Virus record (IMG/VR): IMGVR_UViG_3300047185_000060
Location: 1 to 29,721 of that record
Direction: 5' to 3' (one strand)
Source: a virus
Length of the DNA stretch: 29,721 bases
The notes below the pieces were generated by a model, which saw nothing but the letters and a program-made list of their open reading frames with translations, did no database searches and was not told the DNA's origin. Of this stretch, positions 5,498 through 20,504 are shown piece by piece. Position numbers and translations under genes: made by a program. Position 1 is the stretch's first letter. Every line of letters starts with the position of its first letter.

Positions 5498-6163
5498 TCA
5501 ATTCAGTTTGTATCGTCGCATAAGCGTCACAAGTTTAAGTCCATATTCAGGATCCAGTGCGTACGTCTTGGCTATTGACCGCGCAAATTTCTCTGGAGAA
5601 TTCACATGCTTGAATGCGTCTCGATACAGCGGTGAACCCGCTATGTATTTCCCGTGCACGAGAAAGGACTCCGCTATATTTTGATACCGCGAGAACCGTG
5701 TTCGCTTCGGAATCCATTTTCCATTCACCAATATTTTGTCCATTCTCACTACATACCGGGGATGTTGTAGATATTTTTTTGTCGCTGCGTAGGAATGGCC
5801 AAAATAATTTTCCGCTCCGAGTGAACATAATCCCCATTTGCTTTCTAATATCCATTGACTTATGACCACGCTTTCTGGAACTTTATAAAGGGAATCAACG
5901 ATGTGAGCCAAAACGCGGACCGTGTCCGGGATCTTCCCCAGCTGAAATATTCTGGATTTGTTTCGACCTCCGAGATATGCTGCCAAAACTCCGCCAGAGT
6001 CCGGGGAAATCGTCCATTCCAATACCACATCATCGAGGATTTCTTTTGAATCGTCTTTTGAAATTTGCTCAGGAGGATAATTATACCAGTAGATAAGTAG
6101 GATTGCGCCGAGCGCAAAGCCGATAACCATACCAGCTGTGAGCCATCTGATTTTTGATCGCAT
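5498..6163 (-). CDS. Membrane-anchored endolysin, glucosaminidase (FlgJ-like) family
   Basis: 221 residues. Residues 7-27 are an uncleaved-looking hydrophobic segment, as in signal-anchor endolysins. The catalytic domain (about 80-221) has the glucosaminidase signature: ISQWILESKWG, with E107 as the likely general acid, then ENYFG at 118-122 and a C-terminal YAAxxxY-type helix region. It would cleave the glycan strand of peptidoglycan at the end of the lytic cycle. The start has CGGAG eleven bases upstream. The preceding HNH-AP2 reading frame runs about 300 bases into this gene in another frame. Confidence 0.85.
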   Translation of the reverse strand: MRSKIRWLTAGMVIGFALGAILLIYWYNYPPEQISKDDSKEILDDVVLEWTISPDSGGVLAAYLGGRNKSRIFQLGKIPDTVRVLAHIVDSLYKVPESVVISQWILESKWGLCSLGAENYFGHSYAATKKYLQHPRYVVRMDKILVNGKWIPKRTRFSRYQNIAESFLVHGKYIAGSPLYRDAFKHVNSPEKFARSIAKTYALDPEYGLKLVTLMRRYKLN

Positions 6164-6678
6164 GAAGTTATCTCCGGGATAGTTTGAGAATCGGGGAAAT
6201 TGAGTCTTGCAAATTTGCCAAAATGTTTTGTTGCAGCATCATCATATGCGCGAGCCGCTTCTTCCATAGAACCATAACATCCAAGATGAATTGTTTTACC
6301 ATTTATTCCGATGTCGGCGCGCCAATAATCTCTATCTTTATATATTCCTTTCAATCCGGTTTTATTCGCAATGCCTATTCTTTTATTAAATGCCAATTCT
6401 TGATGAGTTGCGAAAAGGAGATTTTCACGCCGATTGTCCAAAGTATTACCATTCCTATATCCTATCTGGAAATCTTTTTGATTGGGCAAAAGAAACTGAG
6501 ATAAGTATTGTGTCCTTTGTTTTTTAATTTTAGAATCATATATATGTCTTACCGCCTTCCAATCTTGACGCCAGATCGTTCTATCTTTCACTGCGTTCCA
6601 TTTATATTGATTTACTGCCGGATAGTCTTCGTCATCGATTAGAGCAACTTTCCCTTGTGTCAACGGAATTTCTTGCAA
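5860..6678 (-). CDS. Degenerate HNH endonuclease with AP2 DNA-binding domain, read-through 3' end
   Basis: The first 90 residues follow the phage HNH-homing pattern (EIPLTQGKVALIDDEDY, then NGNTLDNRRENL). However, the usual catalytic His pair is replaced: GY stands where DH is expected, and the upstream MHR-type motif is LSQ. Residues about 108-165 form an AP2 domain (GLKGIYKDRDYWRADIGING...AARAYDDAA...ARLNF). The domain ends near 6190, but no stop follows, and the frame runs about 300 bases into the lysin in another frame. TTG at 6678 is preferred because GGAG precedes it by six bases. The in-frame ATG at 6690 touches a terminator U-tract and has no ribosome site. Probably an inactivated homing nuclease or DNA-binding remnant. 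Confidence 0.65.
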   Translation of the reverse strand: MQEIPLTQGKVALIDDEDYPAVNQYKWNAVKDRTIWRQDWKAVRHIYDSKIKKQRTQYLSQFLLPNQKDFQIGYRNGNTLDNRRENLLFATHQELAFNKRIGIANKTGLKGIYKDRDYWRADIGINGKTIHLGCYGSMEEAARAYDDAATKHFGKFARLNFPDSQTIPEITSCDQKSDGSQLVWLSALRSAQSYLSTGIIILLSKFQKTIQKKSSMMWYWNGRFPRTLAEFWQHISEVETNPEYFSWGRSRTRSAFWLTSLIPFIKFQKAWS

Positions 6679-6690
6679 CCTCTTCTCCAT

Positions 6691-6741
6691 AAAATAAAAA
6701 ACGCCTCGCCCGCCCAGGTATTACCTGAACGAACGAGGCGT
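6691..6741 (-). terminator. Rho-independent terminator before left late operon
   Basis: On the minus strand an 8-bp stem ACGCCTCG/CGAGGCGT (6701-6708 with 6734-6741) encloses a second small stem around CAGGTA/TACCTG. It is followed by TTTTTTATTTT. It lies exactly between the accessory genes and the first late gene, whose start is within about 15 bases of the U-tract. Confidence 0.85.
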
Positions 6742-6785
6742 CTTGTGATGGACTTACCTCTATTTACATTTTATTTATACTTCAA
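6742..6785 (-). promoter_or_regulatory. Left late leader motif (shared with right arm)
   Basis: The minus-strand sequence begins TTGAAGTATAAATA, continues ..TG....TAG.. and ends TCCATCACAAG directly against the terminator stem. The right arm has the same order at 19959-20000 (TTGAAATAGAAATA ... TCCGATCACAAG), also directly against its terminator. Two copies in matching places argue for a functional late promoter or antitermination element. Which of the two it is cannot be decided from sequence. Confidence 0.65.
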
Positions 6786-6874
6786 TTACTTAAGGGCTTG
6801 TGCCCTAATTCTACTTGCTAATCTATTGATTCGGCAATTAAAAGTCAAATGGTTATTTTTTGCCGATCTCCTTC

Positions 6875-9820: not shown

Positions 9821-10067
9821 TATTTCTCATTGTAAAATCTGCGGCTGCCAGGATCCAACAGGTCCGTTACCTGAACATTTATCAGATGTGGAAATGCGTA
9901 TAATCGTACAACGGTTTAATTTTTTGATAAAAGAAATCGCAGATAAAATTTCTGTAAGTAAATCCGCAATTGCAACCTCTTTAAATGGTCACATAAAAAG
10001 TAGACCTACGCACATAAAGTTTGAAAAATATCTATTGAAAATCCTTATAGAGAAAAATCATGAATGA
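9813..10067 (+). CDS. Small zinc-binding HTH protein
   Basis: 84 residues from the ATG at 9813, which has AAAGGAGAG seven bases upstream; an in-frame upstream start at 9771 lacks a ribosome site. The N-terminus has CKICGC, a half zinc ribbon, then an HTH (EIADKISVSKSAIATSLNGHIKS). It overlaps the transposase start by 8 bases and is therefore coupled to it. It is the third of three consecutive small HTH genes, likely early regulators or transposition co-factors. Confidence 0.65.
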   Translation: MPDISHCKICGCQDPTGPLPEHLSDVEMRIIVQRFNFLIKEIADKISVSKSAIATSLNGHIKSRPTHIKFEKYLLKILIEKNHE

Positions 10068-11925
10068 CATTGATCTCCCCATAATACCAATACCCAAGAT
10101 CACCGATGAAATTCTAACGCGCGTGAATGCCTTCACTACATTTCTTTCTGTTACTGAAAATATAGAAGAAGCAAAAAAGGGTCTCGCAGAAAAATCAGGA
10201 CTATCATTACCGACGGTCCACTGGTATTTGATCCGGCTTCGAAAACTTTTTAAACTCCCATCACGCGCTCATCTCTCATCGATTTCTAAACATCCACAAC
10301 TGCAGCATGCGCTCGAGTATCTATTCACGCGCAAGGAGAGAAGTGATAAGGCATCACTTGCAAGCGCAAAGAATCTGTCCGTTATAGTTCCGACAAATGG
10401 TGAATTATTGTCCGTTGAAGATTTCTTAAAGTCACTTTACCCACGCGAAGGAGTCAATGCCGCCAGCTGCTATCGCGTCCTCGCTGCTCGATGCTTGAAA
10501 AGACAAGTTGTAAAAACCCCCACGTCTCCCCCTTCACAAGGGGGAGATATAGATGGGGTCGCAATCCTTGCCGATCTTCCGTCTCAGTCTTCAGTCAATC
10601 GCTTCCTCCGTCAATGGAAGAAGGAATGCTTCGCAGTTCAACGCGCACGCACGCGTAAGCATGATTGGGAAACACAACAGCAAGCGTACGTTACGCGTGA
10701 CGTTACTCAATACCAGCCGGGCGAACTTTGGATCGGCGATCATACGGAACTTGATTTTATTGTTATTAACGAGCAGGGGAAACCTGACCGCCGCTGGATC
10801 TCTGCGTTTATAGATATTCGCACCGGGCTTCTTATCGGCTATCATTTATCCTGGCAGCCAAACTCACAAACGATCGCAGCAGCCTTCCGCAATGGGGTTT
10901 TAAGTAATCAGATAAAAGCATTCACCGGCGAGAAATTCGAGCGAGTCAATATCACGAACATTCCTCAGACCGTAATGATGGATAATGGCAAAGATTATCG
11001 CTCAAAATATACCCAGAGAGTATTCGGAAATATAGACTTTGATGATAACGCACGCATCTCTGTCCAGCGAATCACTAAGCTGCATTACACTCAGCCATAT
11101 CACGGACAATCAAAGGCGCAGATGGAGCGATGGTTCGGTTCTATCCAAACGATGCTTAAATACTTGCCGGGCTTCAAAGGCAATCAATACCAGAAGAAGC
11201 CGGACTCGCTGCAAACAGATCTCAAATCCGGAAACATTCTCACTGTCAAACAATTCGATGCAGCCGTCGCAGTCGCAATCAATAGCTATAATAACCGCGT
11301 TCATCGATCGCTCAAAGGCGAAACGCCTCTGCAGAATTACCTCACGCATCAATCACATCAGCGCAGCATCGATATGCGAGTCTTGGATTTCCTGATGATG
11401 AAAGTACAGGGCCGCCGGATCCGGCGATGCCAGGTCACATTACTGAATAGCGAATATTACAGCGAGCAGCTGATGCCGTTCAATGATCAGCTTGCCGATG
11501 TTTATTACGATCCGAACGATCTTGGCTTCATTTCGATTTACGTCAATGGAGATTTTGCTGCCGTCGCAAGCAATAAGGAAATGATCGGTCAGGATGAACG
11601 CGGCTGGCAAAAATTGCTGCATGAACGTAAGACCGGTGAGAAGAAAATGCGTGAAGAGATTGCAGTATTTCGTCAGGGCATTAGCGATCATGATGCGCGA
11701 ATGATGCTCCTGGAAGGCGAGCTGCTCAATATGAATGTTGTGTCGCATGAGATGCTTAAGCAGAACTCATCATCTATTTCAATTATGACCGGACTTGAAT
11801 CGGCAGCAAAACAAAATCAGGAAGAACTCGACCGTGAAAAGCAAATAGCGGAAGTGCATGAGAAACGGAAGAAAGCTAATAAATCAACACTCTCTCTTGT
11901 GGCTGTGAATGAAAAAATAAAATGA
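10060..11925 (+). CDS. Mu A-type DDE transposase
   Basis: 621 residues. An N-terminal HTH region (about 40-75) is followed by a linker, then the RNase-H-like catalytic core: D227 in LWIGDHTELD, D308 in VMMDNGKDY and E356 in QSKAQMERWFG form the DDE triad. The C-terminal part (about 420-490, RRIRRCQVTLLNSEYYSE) fits the Mu-transposase C-terminal beta-barrel domain. A helical, MuB-contacting type tail follows. It cuts the phage ends and joins them to target DNA. Residues 153-167 are encoded by a palindromic element inserted in frame in the linker. It works with the ATPase gene 17 bases downstream. Confidence 0.95.
   Translation: MNDIDLPIIPIPKITDEILTRVNAFTTFLSVTENIEEAKKGLAEKSGLSLPTVHWYLIRLRKLFKLPSRAHLSSISKHPQLQHALEYLFTRKERSDKASLASAKNLSVIVPTNGELLSVEDFLKSLYPREGVNAASCYRVLAARCLKRQVVKTPTSPPSQGGDIDGVAILADLPSQSSVNRFLRQWKKECFAVQRARTRKHDWETQQQAYVTRDVTQYQPGELWIGDHTELDFIVINEQGKPDRRWISAFIDIRTGLLIGYHLSWQPNSQTIAAAFRNGVLSNQIKAFTGEKFERVNITNIPQTVMMDNGKDYRSKYTQRVFGNIDFDDNARISVQRITKLHYTQPYHGQSKAQMERWFGSIQTMLKYLPGFKGNQYQKKPDSLQTDLKSGNILTVKQFDAAVAVAINSYNNRVHRSLKGETPLQNYLTHQSHQRSIDMRVLDFLMMKVQGRRIRRCQVTLLNSEYYSEQLMPFNDQLADVYYDPNDLGFISIYVNGDFAAVASNKEMIGQDERGWQKLLHERKTGEKKMREEIAVFRQGISDHDARMMLLEGELLNMNVVSHEMLKQNSSSISIMTGLESAAKQNQEELDREKQIAEVHEKRKKANKSTLSLVAVNEKIK
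10516..10559. repeat. Palindromic element inserted in frame in the transposase gene
   Basis: The outer arms ACCCC (10516) and GGGGT (to 10559) enclose a perfect 10-bp stem, TCTCCCCCTT / AAGGGGGAGA, with the 3-nt loop CAC. It encodes TPTSPPSQGGDIDGV in the linker between the N-terminal domain and the catalytic core. Composition is unlike the surrounding gene. Confidence 0.85.
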
Positions 11926-11942: not shown

Positions 11943-12887
11943 ATGCAACAAAGCAACCGATTATCACTCGTTGAACAATCTCAAATAACTGAGAGCGTTG
12001 AAGAAATAAAAAAGATTCTTCGCTCGCTTCTTGAAGAAAAGGAAATATCCCTACGCGACATTTCTAAATTCACTGGATTCGCGCCGCCGACAATCTCACA
12101 GGCGCTCAGCGGTCAATATGAAGGCGACATAGCAAAATTAGAGGATGCTCTCGCTCGCTTCTATCGTAACTGGGTGGCAAGTAATCTTATTGTTGAGACC
12201 TCCGTTGTAAAGCAAATACATGGAGTGATGGGGCTTGCATGGAAACGCAAACTGATTTGTCAAATTACAGGACATTTTGGAGCTGGGAAATCTAAGGCGA
12301 GTGCAAGATATGTCGCTCTTAATCCCGACACCTCTGCTTACGTCGAATTAGTCTCAACCACCACACCTACATCATTAATGCATCACATTGCGGAATCTCT
12401 GAATATTGAATCTCAGATGGCCGGTTCTCAAGATGATAAACTTTCAGCAATTGTGCGTGCACTGCAGCGCAAACCGAGACAACTCGTGATTGACGAAGCT
12501 GATAATCTACGCCCTAGAACGCTTGCTATTTTAAAAGATATTCATGGCGGTGAAGAATCCGGACGCTGCTCTATCGTCCTTCTCGGTACCGACAGATTAA
12601 AAATATTATTGAGAGATCCAGTGCTCGGATATTTAAGACGGCGAATAACTCTCCAATGCCATGTCGGCGATATTACATTTGATGAAGCGAAGCTAATAAT
12701 GAATTTTTGGCCGAATAAATTAGATAAGGAAGATCTGAAAGAAGCATGGCAGCGCGCATTGCGTAAATACGGTGTCGCAACGATGGTCGCCATTATGGCT
12801 CGATCGTACGATATGATGCAGTACCATTCTAAAAAATATATAGATGACAAATGCCTTGAAGAAGCTTACGATATGGTATTGGATTGA
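11943..12887 (+). CDS. MuB-like AAA+ ATPase (transposition target selection)
   Basis: 314 residues. An N-terminal HTH (DISKFTGFAPPTISQALSGQ, about 39-58) matches the MuB architecture. The AAA+ core has a Walker A GHFGAGKS (110-117) and a Walker B LVIDEAD (181-187), followed by a sensor region and an RRR-type arginine cluster (YLRRRITLQC). A C-terminal helical domain completes it. It would bind DNA as an ATP filament, deliver target DNA and stimulate the transposase, and confer target immunity. AAGGAGGGTTAA precedes the start; the gene follows the transposase by 17 bases. Confidence 0.93.
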   Translation: MQQSNRLSLVEQSQITESVEEIKKILRSLLEEKEISLRDISKFTGFAPPTISQALSGQYEGDIAKLEDALARFYRNWVASNLIVETSVVKQIHGVMGLAWKRKLICQITGHFGAGKSKASARYVALNPDTSAYVELVSTTTPTSLMHHIAESLNIESQMAGSQDDKLSAIVRALQRKPRQLVIDEADNLRPRTLAILKDIHGGEESGRCSIVLLGTDRLKILLRDPVLGYLRRRITLQCHVGDITFDEAKLIMNFWPNKLDKEDLKEAWQRALRKYGVATMVAIMARSYDMMQYHSKKYIDDKCLEEAYDMVLD

Positions 12888-14836: not shown

Positions 14837-15433
14837 ATGCCACATAAACTTAAATACACGGATGAGCAGCTCCTCGATAAAGCACGACAGTTTTACAAGA
14901 AGAATAATCGTGTACCTGGAATGAATGATTTTCCAGGCGGATTAAGCAGAACTATCATCAAACGAATCGGTGATTGGACAACATATCTCAACCGTGCGAT
15001 TGGGAAAAATCCTGCTTATAAATTCTGGCAGAAAGATGATTTGATAAAATTTGCCCGAGAGTTTTGGCAAAATAATAAACGATTCCCGATAAATAATGAA
15101 ATCGCTTTCGAAGGTCGAAATATTAGAAATATCATTCTCAATAGATTCTCTTCAGTGAATGAATGGCTGGAAAAATCGATCGGAACCAGTCCGCGTATTG
15201 AGATTCTCCGGGCGATCGATGAACTCACTCCTCCCGGATGCGATGAAGCAACTCCACGTGAGATACTCGCATATATCCGGAAGAGGATGATGTTTCCTAC
15301 AAATCTTCTTGGTTTCAATTCTGCCAACCTGAGTGAATCCGGATATATCACTGGCGGCCGTTTGGATCGCACTAGCTGGTGGAAACTTACGCCAAAGGGT
15401 AGAGAATTCTTAAAAGGATTTCAAAATGTGTGA
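14837..15433 (+). CDS. DNA-binding protein with two homing-endonuclease-associated repeats
   Basis: 198 residues. Two tandem copies of the repeat seen beside HNH nucleases are visible. Copy 1 (about 7-56) reads DEQLLDKARQFYKKNNRVP...GDWTTYLNRAIG; copy 2 (about 66-116) reads KDDLIKFAREFWQNNKRFP...SSVNEWLEKSIG. A winged-helix-like C-terminus follows (ISGG-like TGGRLDRTSWWKLTPKGREFL). There is no nuclease motif, so it is probably a DNA-binding protein rather than an active homing enzyme. The next gene starts inside its last codons (8-base overlap). Confidence 0.7.
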   Translation: MPHKLKYTDEQLLDKARQFYKKNNRVPGMNDFPGGLSRTIIKRIGDWTTYLNRAIGKNPAYKFWQKDDLIKFAREFWQNNKRFPINNEIAFEGRNIRNIILNRFSSVNEWLEKSIGTSPRIEILRAIDELTPPGCDEATPREILAYIRKRMMFPTNLLGFNSANLSESGYITGGRLDRTSWWKLTPKGREFLKGFQNV

Positions 15434-15651: not shown

Positions 15652-15885
15652 ATGGGTGGAATTATTTTAAATCAATTTGAATCGCGCAGAAGCATTCGAA
15701 AAGTGGAAAAGCGAGTAGATGGACTTTACCTGCAATGCACAGCTTGCATACGAATGAAACATGAGAAGAAATTTCAAAGAGACATCCGGAGTCTTGTCAA
15801 TCGTGCAAGTCAATGTATAGAATGCCAGGCTAAACATAAACGCCGTAAGGATGCAAGCAGGAGAAATCATCGCATCGCAGCATGA
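15652..15885 (+). CDS. Small zinc-ribbon protein
   Basis: 77 residues from the ATG at 15652, preceded by GAAGGAGGGT, which decides against the longer in-frame start at 15544. CTAC-type CxxC (LQCTACIRMKHEKKF) and a second CIEC near the C-terminus (QCIECQAKHKRRKD) form a four-cysteine zinc ribbon; the tail is strongly basic. DNA or RNA binding is likely. It overlaps the next gene by ATGA. Confidence 0.65.
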   Translation: MGGIILNQFESRRSIRKVEKRVDGLYLQCTACIRMKHEKKFQRDIRSLVNRASQCIECQAKHKRRKDASRRNHRIAA

Positions 15886-16298
15886 CAACTTTTCGCCGAA
15901 ATAATTATCGCGCGGATCATATCCGCCGCTTCGGACAAGCAACCGGAACGCCACTGTTTGATTCTACGCTGGCAACGCATCGCCCAAATGAGGTCGAACA
16001 AACGCGATTTGAAAACGCTCCAAAGGTGATTCAAACTGGCGATGATACGCGGAAACTTTCACATACAATGCTGAAGGCAGACGAGATGAAACTCGGCGAT
16101 ATGCAGCAGCTCGTTCTCGATACATTATATAAAATTGGTCCCGCTACTAATGAAGAAATCGCCCGGCATCTTGGATTGCCAATCAATCATGTTGTTGGCC
16201 GCACATATGAATTAAGACAATTCGGATTAGTTATTTCCGACGGTAAAAGGAAATGCAGCGTTACCGGTAATATCGTTCATGCCTGGAGAGTGAAATGA
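15882..16298 (+). CDS. Winged-helix regulator candidate
   Basis: 138 residues. The first 65 are low in recognisable structure. Residues 72-135 form a winged helix: LVLDTLYKIGPATNEEIARHLGLPINHVVGRTYELRQFGLV with a wing ISDGKRKCSVTGNIVHAW. This resembles MarR/ArsR-type DNA-binding domains. It could be a middle/late activator replacing Mor or C, which I do not find elsewhere in the window; this is inference only. Confidence 0.65.
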   Translation: MTTFRRNNYRADHIRRFGQATGTPLFDSTLATHRPNEVEQTRFENAPKVIQTGDDTRKLSHTMLKADEMKLGDMQQLVLDTLYKIGPATNEEIARHLGLPINHVVGRTYELRQFGLVISDGKRKCSVTGNIVHAWRVK

Positions 16299-19644: not shown

Positions 19645-19956
19645 ATGCGCCAAGATGATGTAGAGGAATTAATAACATACCTGCGCCAGGTATCAAAAAC
19701 AAAGGATAATGTCCAGATTATGATCGATTGCAATGAGCATGGATTCCATGCCAATATAATTTCCGGCAAGTTTTTGGATCTCCTTATGCTCTTATGTAAA
19801 ATAACTAAAACAAAAGATCGTTTACATATTGATGTTGATTATAATGCAGGCGAATTTCATTGGAAGGTGCCAGTCAGCAATATGACAGCGGGCGAATTCA
19901 TGCCGCGCCAGCTACGCGAGCATGAAGGCGTTGACTCACAGCATCGAAATCATTAG
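19645..19956 (+). CDS. Unknown protein built of two similar halves
   Basis: 103 residues. Two segments resemble each other: residues 14-41 (LRQVSKTKDNVQIMIDCNEHGFHANI) and 50-75 (LCKITKTKDRLHIDVDYNAGEFHWKV), sharing the S/TKTKD and D...GFH/EFH patterns, which suggests an internal duplication. AGGGGAAAT precedes the ATG. It is the last gene before the late leader. No known family. Confidence 0.55.
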   Translation: MRQDDVEELITYLRQVSKTKDNVQIMIDCNEHGFHANIISGKFLDLLMLLCKITKTKDRLHIDVDYNAGEFHWKVPVSNMTAGEFMPRQLREHEGVDSQHRNH

Positions 19957-19958
19957 AT

Positions 19959-20000
19959 TTGAAATAGAAATATCTTGATTTAGGATCATCCGATCACAAG
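19959..20000 (+). promoter_or_regulatory. Right late leader motif (shared with left arm)
   Basis: TTGAAATAGAAATA, then ..TG....TAG.. and TCCGATCACAAG, matches the minus-strand element at 6785-6742 with only short gaps. Both copies end directly at a terminator stem. It lies between the last early gene and TerS. It could be an activator-dependent late promoter followed by an attenuator, or an RNA antitermination site. Confidence 0.65.
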
Positions 20001-20001
20001 G

Positions 20002-20045
20002 AGTCCCGTAATCGTCGAAAGATGGTTATGGGACTTTTTATTTTT
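20002..20045 (+). terminator. Rho-independent terminator before packaging operon
   Basis: The stem AGTCCCGTAA / TTATGGGACT (20002-20011 with 20026-20035; one G-U) is followed by TTTTTATTTTT. It lies ten bases before the TerS start codon, so packaging genes need a bypass of this terminator or a start site within it. Confidence 0.88.
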
Positions 20046-20054
20046 GAGGCGAGT

Positions 20055-20504
20055 ATGTCACTGAAAATGGAACGCATCGATGCAAAGCGGTTATACCTTG
20101 AAGAAGGATTAACCATAGAAGAGATCGCCAAGCGAATGCCAAACGTATCTATCCAATCTCTCTATCGGTGGAATAAAGAGGAAGGTTGGGACAAGGAGCG
20201 CGAGGAAATATCCCTGACATCGTTCAGTACGCTTAAACGCACACTCCTTCTGATGTCAAAGAAAATGGAAGAGATGGTGAACTCCGGAGAGATCGAGCCG
20301 CAGGTCGCAGATTCTATTGTAAAGCTTTCTAAGGTGGCAGAACGACTCGATAAAAATGTGAACGCGTACGGCAATATTCTTTTGATGGTTGAAGAGCTGA
20401 CGAATTTCCTTGCCGAACGAGACACAGAATTACTCGATAAGCTCCATCCGTTCCTTATAGAATTCGGACAGGAGATGGGCAGAAAATACAGCAAGAAACG
20501 CTGA
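20055..20504 (+). CDS. Terminase small subunit-like protein (HTH)
   Basis: 149 residues from the ATG at 20055 with GAGGCGA before it; the earlier in-frame start at 20022 lies inside the terminator hairpin. An N-terminal HTH (RLYLEEGLTIEEIAKRMPNVSIQSLYRWNKEEGW) is followed by a helical oligomerisation region. This is the pattern of small terminases of Mu-like phages, and TerL follows seven bases later. It would recognise the packaging start on phage DNA. Confidence 0.75.
   Translation: MSLKMERIDAKRLYLEEGLTIEEIAKRMPNVSIQSLYRWNKEEGWDKEREEISLTSFSTLKRTLLLMSKKMEEMVNSGEIEPQVADSIVKLSKVAERLDKNVNAYGNILLMVEELTNFLAERDTELLDKLHPFLIEFGQEMGRKYSKKR

Follow-up and report, generated by a model that had tools for sequence, protein, structure and literature searches.

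An attenuator-like RNA hairpin at the heads of both late operons in a family of Mu-like phages

In the viral contig analysed here (the window, a stretch of 29,721 bases taken as a whole), each of the two late operons is headed by a cassette of the same build, consisting of a host-type promoter, an RNA hairpin of 24 nt with an intrinsic terminator that overlaps it, and the first late gene. The same cassette was found in ten other phages. Its two copies probably work as attenuators relieved by a factor, for which the small phage protein p19645 is the most likely candidate. One RNA signal opening two outward-facing arms, both pointing away from the early region, would be a simple way for a Mu-like phage whose late operons are split to synchronise its head and packaging genes. 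If this reading is true, an entire group of transposable phages in Bacteroidota/Ignavibacteria and in KSB1-type bacteria times its late genes by RNA attenuation instead of promoter activation, and a very small, portable RNA–protein pair controls termination.

Leaders of the two late operons

The middle of the window carries MuA/MuB-type genes at 10060-11925 and 11943-12887, a GemA gene identified by Pfam match, and a gene for a repressor-like HTH protein. The genes that we take to be MuA, MuB, TerL, portal, and capsid were so labelled from family features and gene order, without a profile search. The left late arm, on the minus strand, runs down from 6690, and the right late arm extends from TerS (about 20055) onwards (Table 1). 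The TerS start given in the table is probably the true one, because the listed ATG at 20022 falls within the terminator. A tRNA-Gly gene (anticodon TCC) lies at 1116-1189 on the minus strand, between the left late operon genes 1286-2326 and 649-1107. Relatives were drawn from viral contigs and from Bacteroidota, Ignavibacteriales, and KSB1 genomes; transposase identity among them was about 47-65%, and 38% for the most distant, G059. Two small middle genes, at 14837-15433 (HNH-repeat-like) and 15882-16298 (winged-helix-like), were found in all 17 of 17 phages.

Table 1. Positions of the leader elements and adjacent genes in the window
Feature	Position	Strand	Remarks
Left late operon, gene 1	5860..6690	-	weak HNH/AP2 matches
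Left intrinsic terminator hairpin and U-tract	6692..6743	-	5' arm is the antiterminator 3' strand
Left antiterminator hairpin	6736..6759	-	P1 6759-6756/6739-6736, extended by 6760/6735
Left antiterminator, inner parts	bulge 6755-6754; P2 6753-6751/6742-6740; loop 6750-6743	-	
Left late promoter, TTGACT-N17-TAGATT	6820..6848	-	predicted start site near 6813
p19645, orphan small protein	19645..19956	+	candidate trans-acting factor; gene directly upstream of TerS leader
Right late promoter, TTGACT-N17-TAGATT	19931..19959	+	predicted start site near 19966
Right antiterminator hairpin	19983..20006	+	P1 19983-19986/20003-20006
Right antiterminator, inner parts	bulge 19987-19988; P2 19989-19991/20000-20002; loop 19992-19999	+	
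Right intrinsic terminator and U-tract	19998..20045	+	overlaps antiterminator
TerS	20055..20504	+	probable true start 20055 (MSLKMERIDAKRLY); homologues begin at same position

An earlier note on this DNA had described similar leaders on both arms, each running into a terminator directly before the first late gene, and this was borne out. The sequence TTGAARTAKAAATA occurs exactly at 6785-6772 on the minus strand and at 19959-19972 on the plus strand, and ATCACAAG adjoins both terminators. When the window was searched with a covariance model trained without it (R2), only the two leader sites were recognised, at 39.6 and 31.4 bits, with the runner-up site at 8.2, indicating that the leader similarity is beyond chance. 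The pairing of the leaders thus stands in substance, but the boundaries of the motif and the mechanism proposed for it needed revision. The promoters sit further upstream than the leader start as first reported. The block TTGAAnTAnAAATA had been regarded as the conserved part; on comparison with relatives, its TTGAA...TAG stretch was not kept, whereas a box of about 24 nt was, including the 5' arm of the terminator. Because its boundaries were wrong, the full motif as first described gave no match in a scan of viral contigs.

A promoter of the form TTGAY-N17-TAnnWT, at exactly 17-nt spacing, was detected in 21 of 27 leaders, as against 0.08 expected from shuffles. Spacings of 12-16 and 18-20 were found in none of the 27 leaders, and those of 21 and 22 in one each. 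The distance between promoter and box varied from about 14 to 100 nt, and that between box and terminator was fixed. It is therefore the terminator, and not the promoter, to which the element is fixed, and this argues against a site of the Q type. Translation-coupled attenuation was set aside, since some leaders leave only about 10 nt from the predicted start to the hairpin, into which a leader peptide cannot fit.

Covariation of the hairpin and its overlap with the terminator

The conserved box, GGGUnAnnCGAUnAyAAGnnGCCC, runs into the base of the terminator (GCCC...GGGC, followed by U residues). It folds into a hairpin whose stems P1 and P2, of 4 and 3 bp, are separated by a 2-nt bulge on the 5' side and capped by the loop GAUnAyAA. 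Covariation was measured in a gap-free alignment of 19 elements with the 8-nt loop. Paired cells made up 94.7% of the total, 20 cells were doubly changed, and two-sided changes were observed for five of the seven pairs. The covariation score was 0.443 versus 0.135 in shuffles, and none of 500 shuffles reached it; after sliding by one column the pairing fell to about 55%, and at one to three columns the score collapsed. The same hairpin was returned by RNAalifold, unprompted. A U.G pair beside the bulge is retained in 18 of the 19 elements. Compensation was apparent between the two arms of the window itself, both in P1 (GGAU/GUCC on the right versus AGGU/GCCU on the left) and in P2 (UCC/GGA and GUC/GAC), and P2 reads CGC/GCG, GGC/GCC, UUC/GAA, ACC/GGU, or UCG/CGA in other phages. 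Lack of pairing at the outer P1 position in 6 of 21 sequences counts against the hairpin model. A linear protein-binding box was dropped as an explanation once the covariation of P1 and P2 emerged. An internal GUUAU/AUAAC hairpin, also considered, was present in few copies and absent from others.

In a minority of elements the loop is 5 nt long and the bulge and stems are unchanged; this class was found on both arms of L008 and on the right arms of L010, G003, and L002, and the left arm of L010 carries a near variant. Two leaders contain additional copies. The left leader of L002 (6810-6960, minus strand) has three tandem copies of antiterminator plus 5' terminator arm with a single 3' arm, for which all three could compete. 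The right leader of L006 (9320-9450, plus strand) has two degenerate boxes, each with a hairpin and without a U-tract, ahead of the intact element. An Rfam search of five phage sources gave no RNA family above gathering score except a tRNA.

The stems on the two arms had been described as unrelated in sequence and the motif as lying outside any repeat. The two arms indeed have different stem sequences; on each arm, however, the box base-pairs with the terminator stem of that arm (left, GAGGU/GCCUC; right, GGAU/GUCC). As the 3' strand of P1 doubles as the 5' arm of the terminator, the two hairpins are mutually exclusive. By computed folding, RNA ending before the 3' terminator arm took the antiterminator fold wholly or largely in most leaders, the right leader of the window being among the weaker cases (three of seven pairs in the truncated fold), and full-length leader RNA took the terminator fold. 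The hairpin alone amounts to about -3 to -9 kcal/mol and the terminator usually to -23 to -44 kcal/mol; the L006 terminator was shortened by the U-tract search, and its energy was unusable.

These properties suggest the following order of events. Each late operon would be driven by an ordinary promoter of the host sigma type, and by default transcription would halt at the intrinsic terminator after about 80-120 nt. The nascent leader would first fold the small hairpin, in which P1 takes the 5' arm of the terminator; alone, however, this hairpin would be too weak, and the terminator would replace it. A phage factor produced during the middle phase, with p19645 the most likely candidate, may bind the bulge and loop and hold the hairpin, so that the polymerase could enter both late arms together. 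Default termination with factor-dependent relief appears to be the simplest reading of the cassette; like it, which way the control runs and which protein is the factor are inferred.

Distribution of the element and the candidate factor

All 11 phages in which both late heads could be read carried the element at each of them (the window, L004, L009, G564, G059, G001, G002, L002, L008, L010, and L040). Two phages depart from this pattern. G470 has a degenerate left copy and a TerS gene without a leader although p19645 is present, which counts against the model; G434 also has TerS without a leader, and its left arm lies beyond the contig. The model R1 predicted the element at the left arm of L040, outside its training set, and P2 is compensated there (GAC/GUC versus ACC/GGU in the near relative G564). 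Over 391 genomes of the same class, R1 gave ten matches, nine of them in already known prophages and the tenth on a contig whose portal is 76% identical to that of the window. A phylum-wide draw of 345 genomes gave matches in prophages only. Among the Bacteroidota genomes searched, the element is confined to this phage family; strict filters were used and few candidates were scored per genome, which leaves room for rare host copies. A gene-independent pattern scan of viral contigs yielded a single contig, L036, which is unrelated and has P1 unpaired, and was set aside as a probable chance match. In the phage of G497 (L067/L073), an element at G497:C32:5101-5132 precedes a lysozyme-like gene facing the portal/MuF genes, and the head of the left arm seems to be located at the right end.

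The p19645 family, of about 55-100 residues, is represented in 16 of 17 phages. No convincing match was found for p19645 in phage records, Pfam, PHROGs, or PDB sequences. Its AlphaFold model, of modest confidence (mean pLDDT 65), consists of a helix and a beta-hairpin, and a fold search of this model against the PDB recognised no RNA-binding fold. The window protein shows an apparent internal duplication of a domain of about 50 residues, which is single in most relatives. The three phages with the 5-nt loop ranked first of 364 trios in the similarity of their p19645 proteins, and the same trio stood at 0.16-0.79 of all trios for 12 other families. As judged from these sequences, the type of p19645 may follow the loop class of the RNA, and with about 0.04 after correction for 13 families and only three phages, this is suggestive only. 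The loop classes were not separated in the p19645 tree, and the right leader and p19645 could move together by recombination because they are adjacent. Of 11 phages, 10 had the same loop type on the left and right arms (permutation p=0.0004), a pattern that a single factor acting on both would be expected to produce and to which common ancestry also contributes. These findings suggest that one phage-made factor frees both late operons at once.

The same attenuator might instead respond to another ligand, for instance a small molecule, an RNA-binding protein of the host, or another phage protein such as p15882 or p14837. Any ligand could fit the bulge and loop, and these two proteins occur in 17 of 17 phages; the loop class, however, is not followed by either of them, and a host regulator is difficult to reconcile with the lack of element copies outside the phage family in the Bacteroidota genomes searched. 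We regard such a ligand as rather unlikely. The earlier note had left the choice between one factor and an RNA that acts by itself, as in phage HK022 put sites. Its proposal of a shared signal for head and packaging operons is supported, and a trans-acting factor is favoured because the element co-varies with p19645. That the RNA acts directly on RNA polymerase without a phage protein is improbable, even though a short structured leader RNA with a highly conserved loop does lie directly after strong promoters at two operons of one phage. The put-like option is less supported: in place of some 70 nt forming two stems there is a single 24-nt hairpin, one strand of which also belongs to its terminator, as in protein-dependent attenuators, and the two loop classes track a phage protein.

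Still less probable is control at initiation, in which a Mor/C-like activator turns on the late promoters in the leaders and the hairpin-terminator merely blocks read-through from upstream. A terminator ahead of the late genes would insulate them, and Mu late promoters require the activator C (PMC4461284). However, the promoters with their fixed 17-nt spacing sit upstream of the terminator, it is the box-terminator and not the promoter-box distance that is constant, no Mor/C match was obtained among 20 window proteins scanned with Pfam, and the covarying alternative hairpin would be left unexplained. It is highly improbable that the terminated leader functions as a small regulatory RNA in its own right: promoter and terminator do bound a distinct transcript of about 80-120 nt on either arm, but sequence conservation does not extend beyond the hairpin and terminator, the conserved base pairs compete with terminator formation, and the element always lies ahead of late genes.

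Comparison with known systems

The antiterminator and terminator hairpins exclude each other, and by this analogy the element would be an attenuator of the BglG/ANTAR type and not a put-like RNA. In the RAT sites of BglG/SacY/LicT, the antiterminator overlaps the foot of an intrinsic terminator at the head of an operon, and the two are mutually exclusive (PMC9981650). The element described here likewise overlaps and excludes its terminator, but it differs from RAT in sequence and shape, serves phage late operons instead of sugar operons, and occurs in two copies on divergent arms. No BglG-family RNA-binding protein was matched by Pfam among the 20 window proteins scanned. The targets of ANTAR proteins (EutV, NasR, AmiR) are short stems with conserved loops that overlap the 5' part of the terminator (PMC3369931). 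An ANTAR site has two 3-bp hairpins with 6-nt loops (A1, G4), whereas the element is a single hairpin that has a bulge and a loop of 8 or 5 nt. It lacks tandem hexaloops; L002 and L006 have repeat copies, yet without hexaloops, and an ANTAR domain was not found in the window proteins scanned. As far as tested, the element fits neither the RNA nor the protein definition of BglG/SacY or ANTAR.

The putRNA of HK022, a molecule of about 70 nt folded into two stem-loops, binds to RNA polymerase and exerts its effect at terminators far downstream (PMC9378689). The present element resembles it as a cis-acting RNA at two phage operons, but is a single 24-nt hairpin fused to its own terminator. As in the lambdoid Q system, a terminator follows a late promoter, and we propose that a phage factor helps the polymerase past it. 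Q depends on a DNA site located between the -35 and -10 elements, together with a pause close to the promoter (PMC6606751), whereas this element is tied to the terminator at a variable distance from the promoter.

Among the open-access papers searched, none described anything comparable to late-gene attenuation in Mu-like phages. With Mu itself, the phage shares the MuA/MuB-type genes, GemA, and the lifestyle, and its leaders would serve the same purpose as late control by C. Mu protein C activates initiation at the late promoters (PMC4461284); unlike Mu, the window gave no C/Mor match among the 20 proteins scanned, a subset of its ORFs. On balance we lean slightly towards the view that a new RNA family and a new family of small RNA-binding proteins together form the late-gene switch of these Mu-like phages, in place of Mu C.
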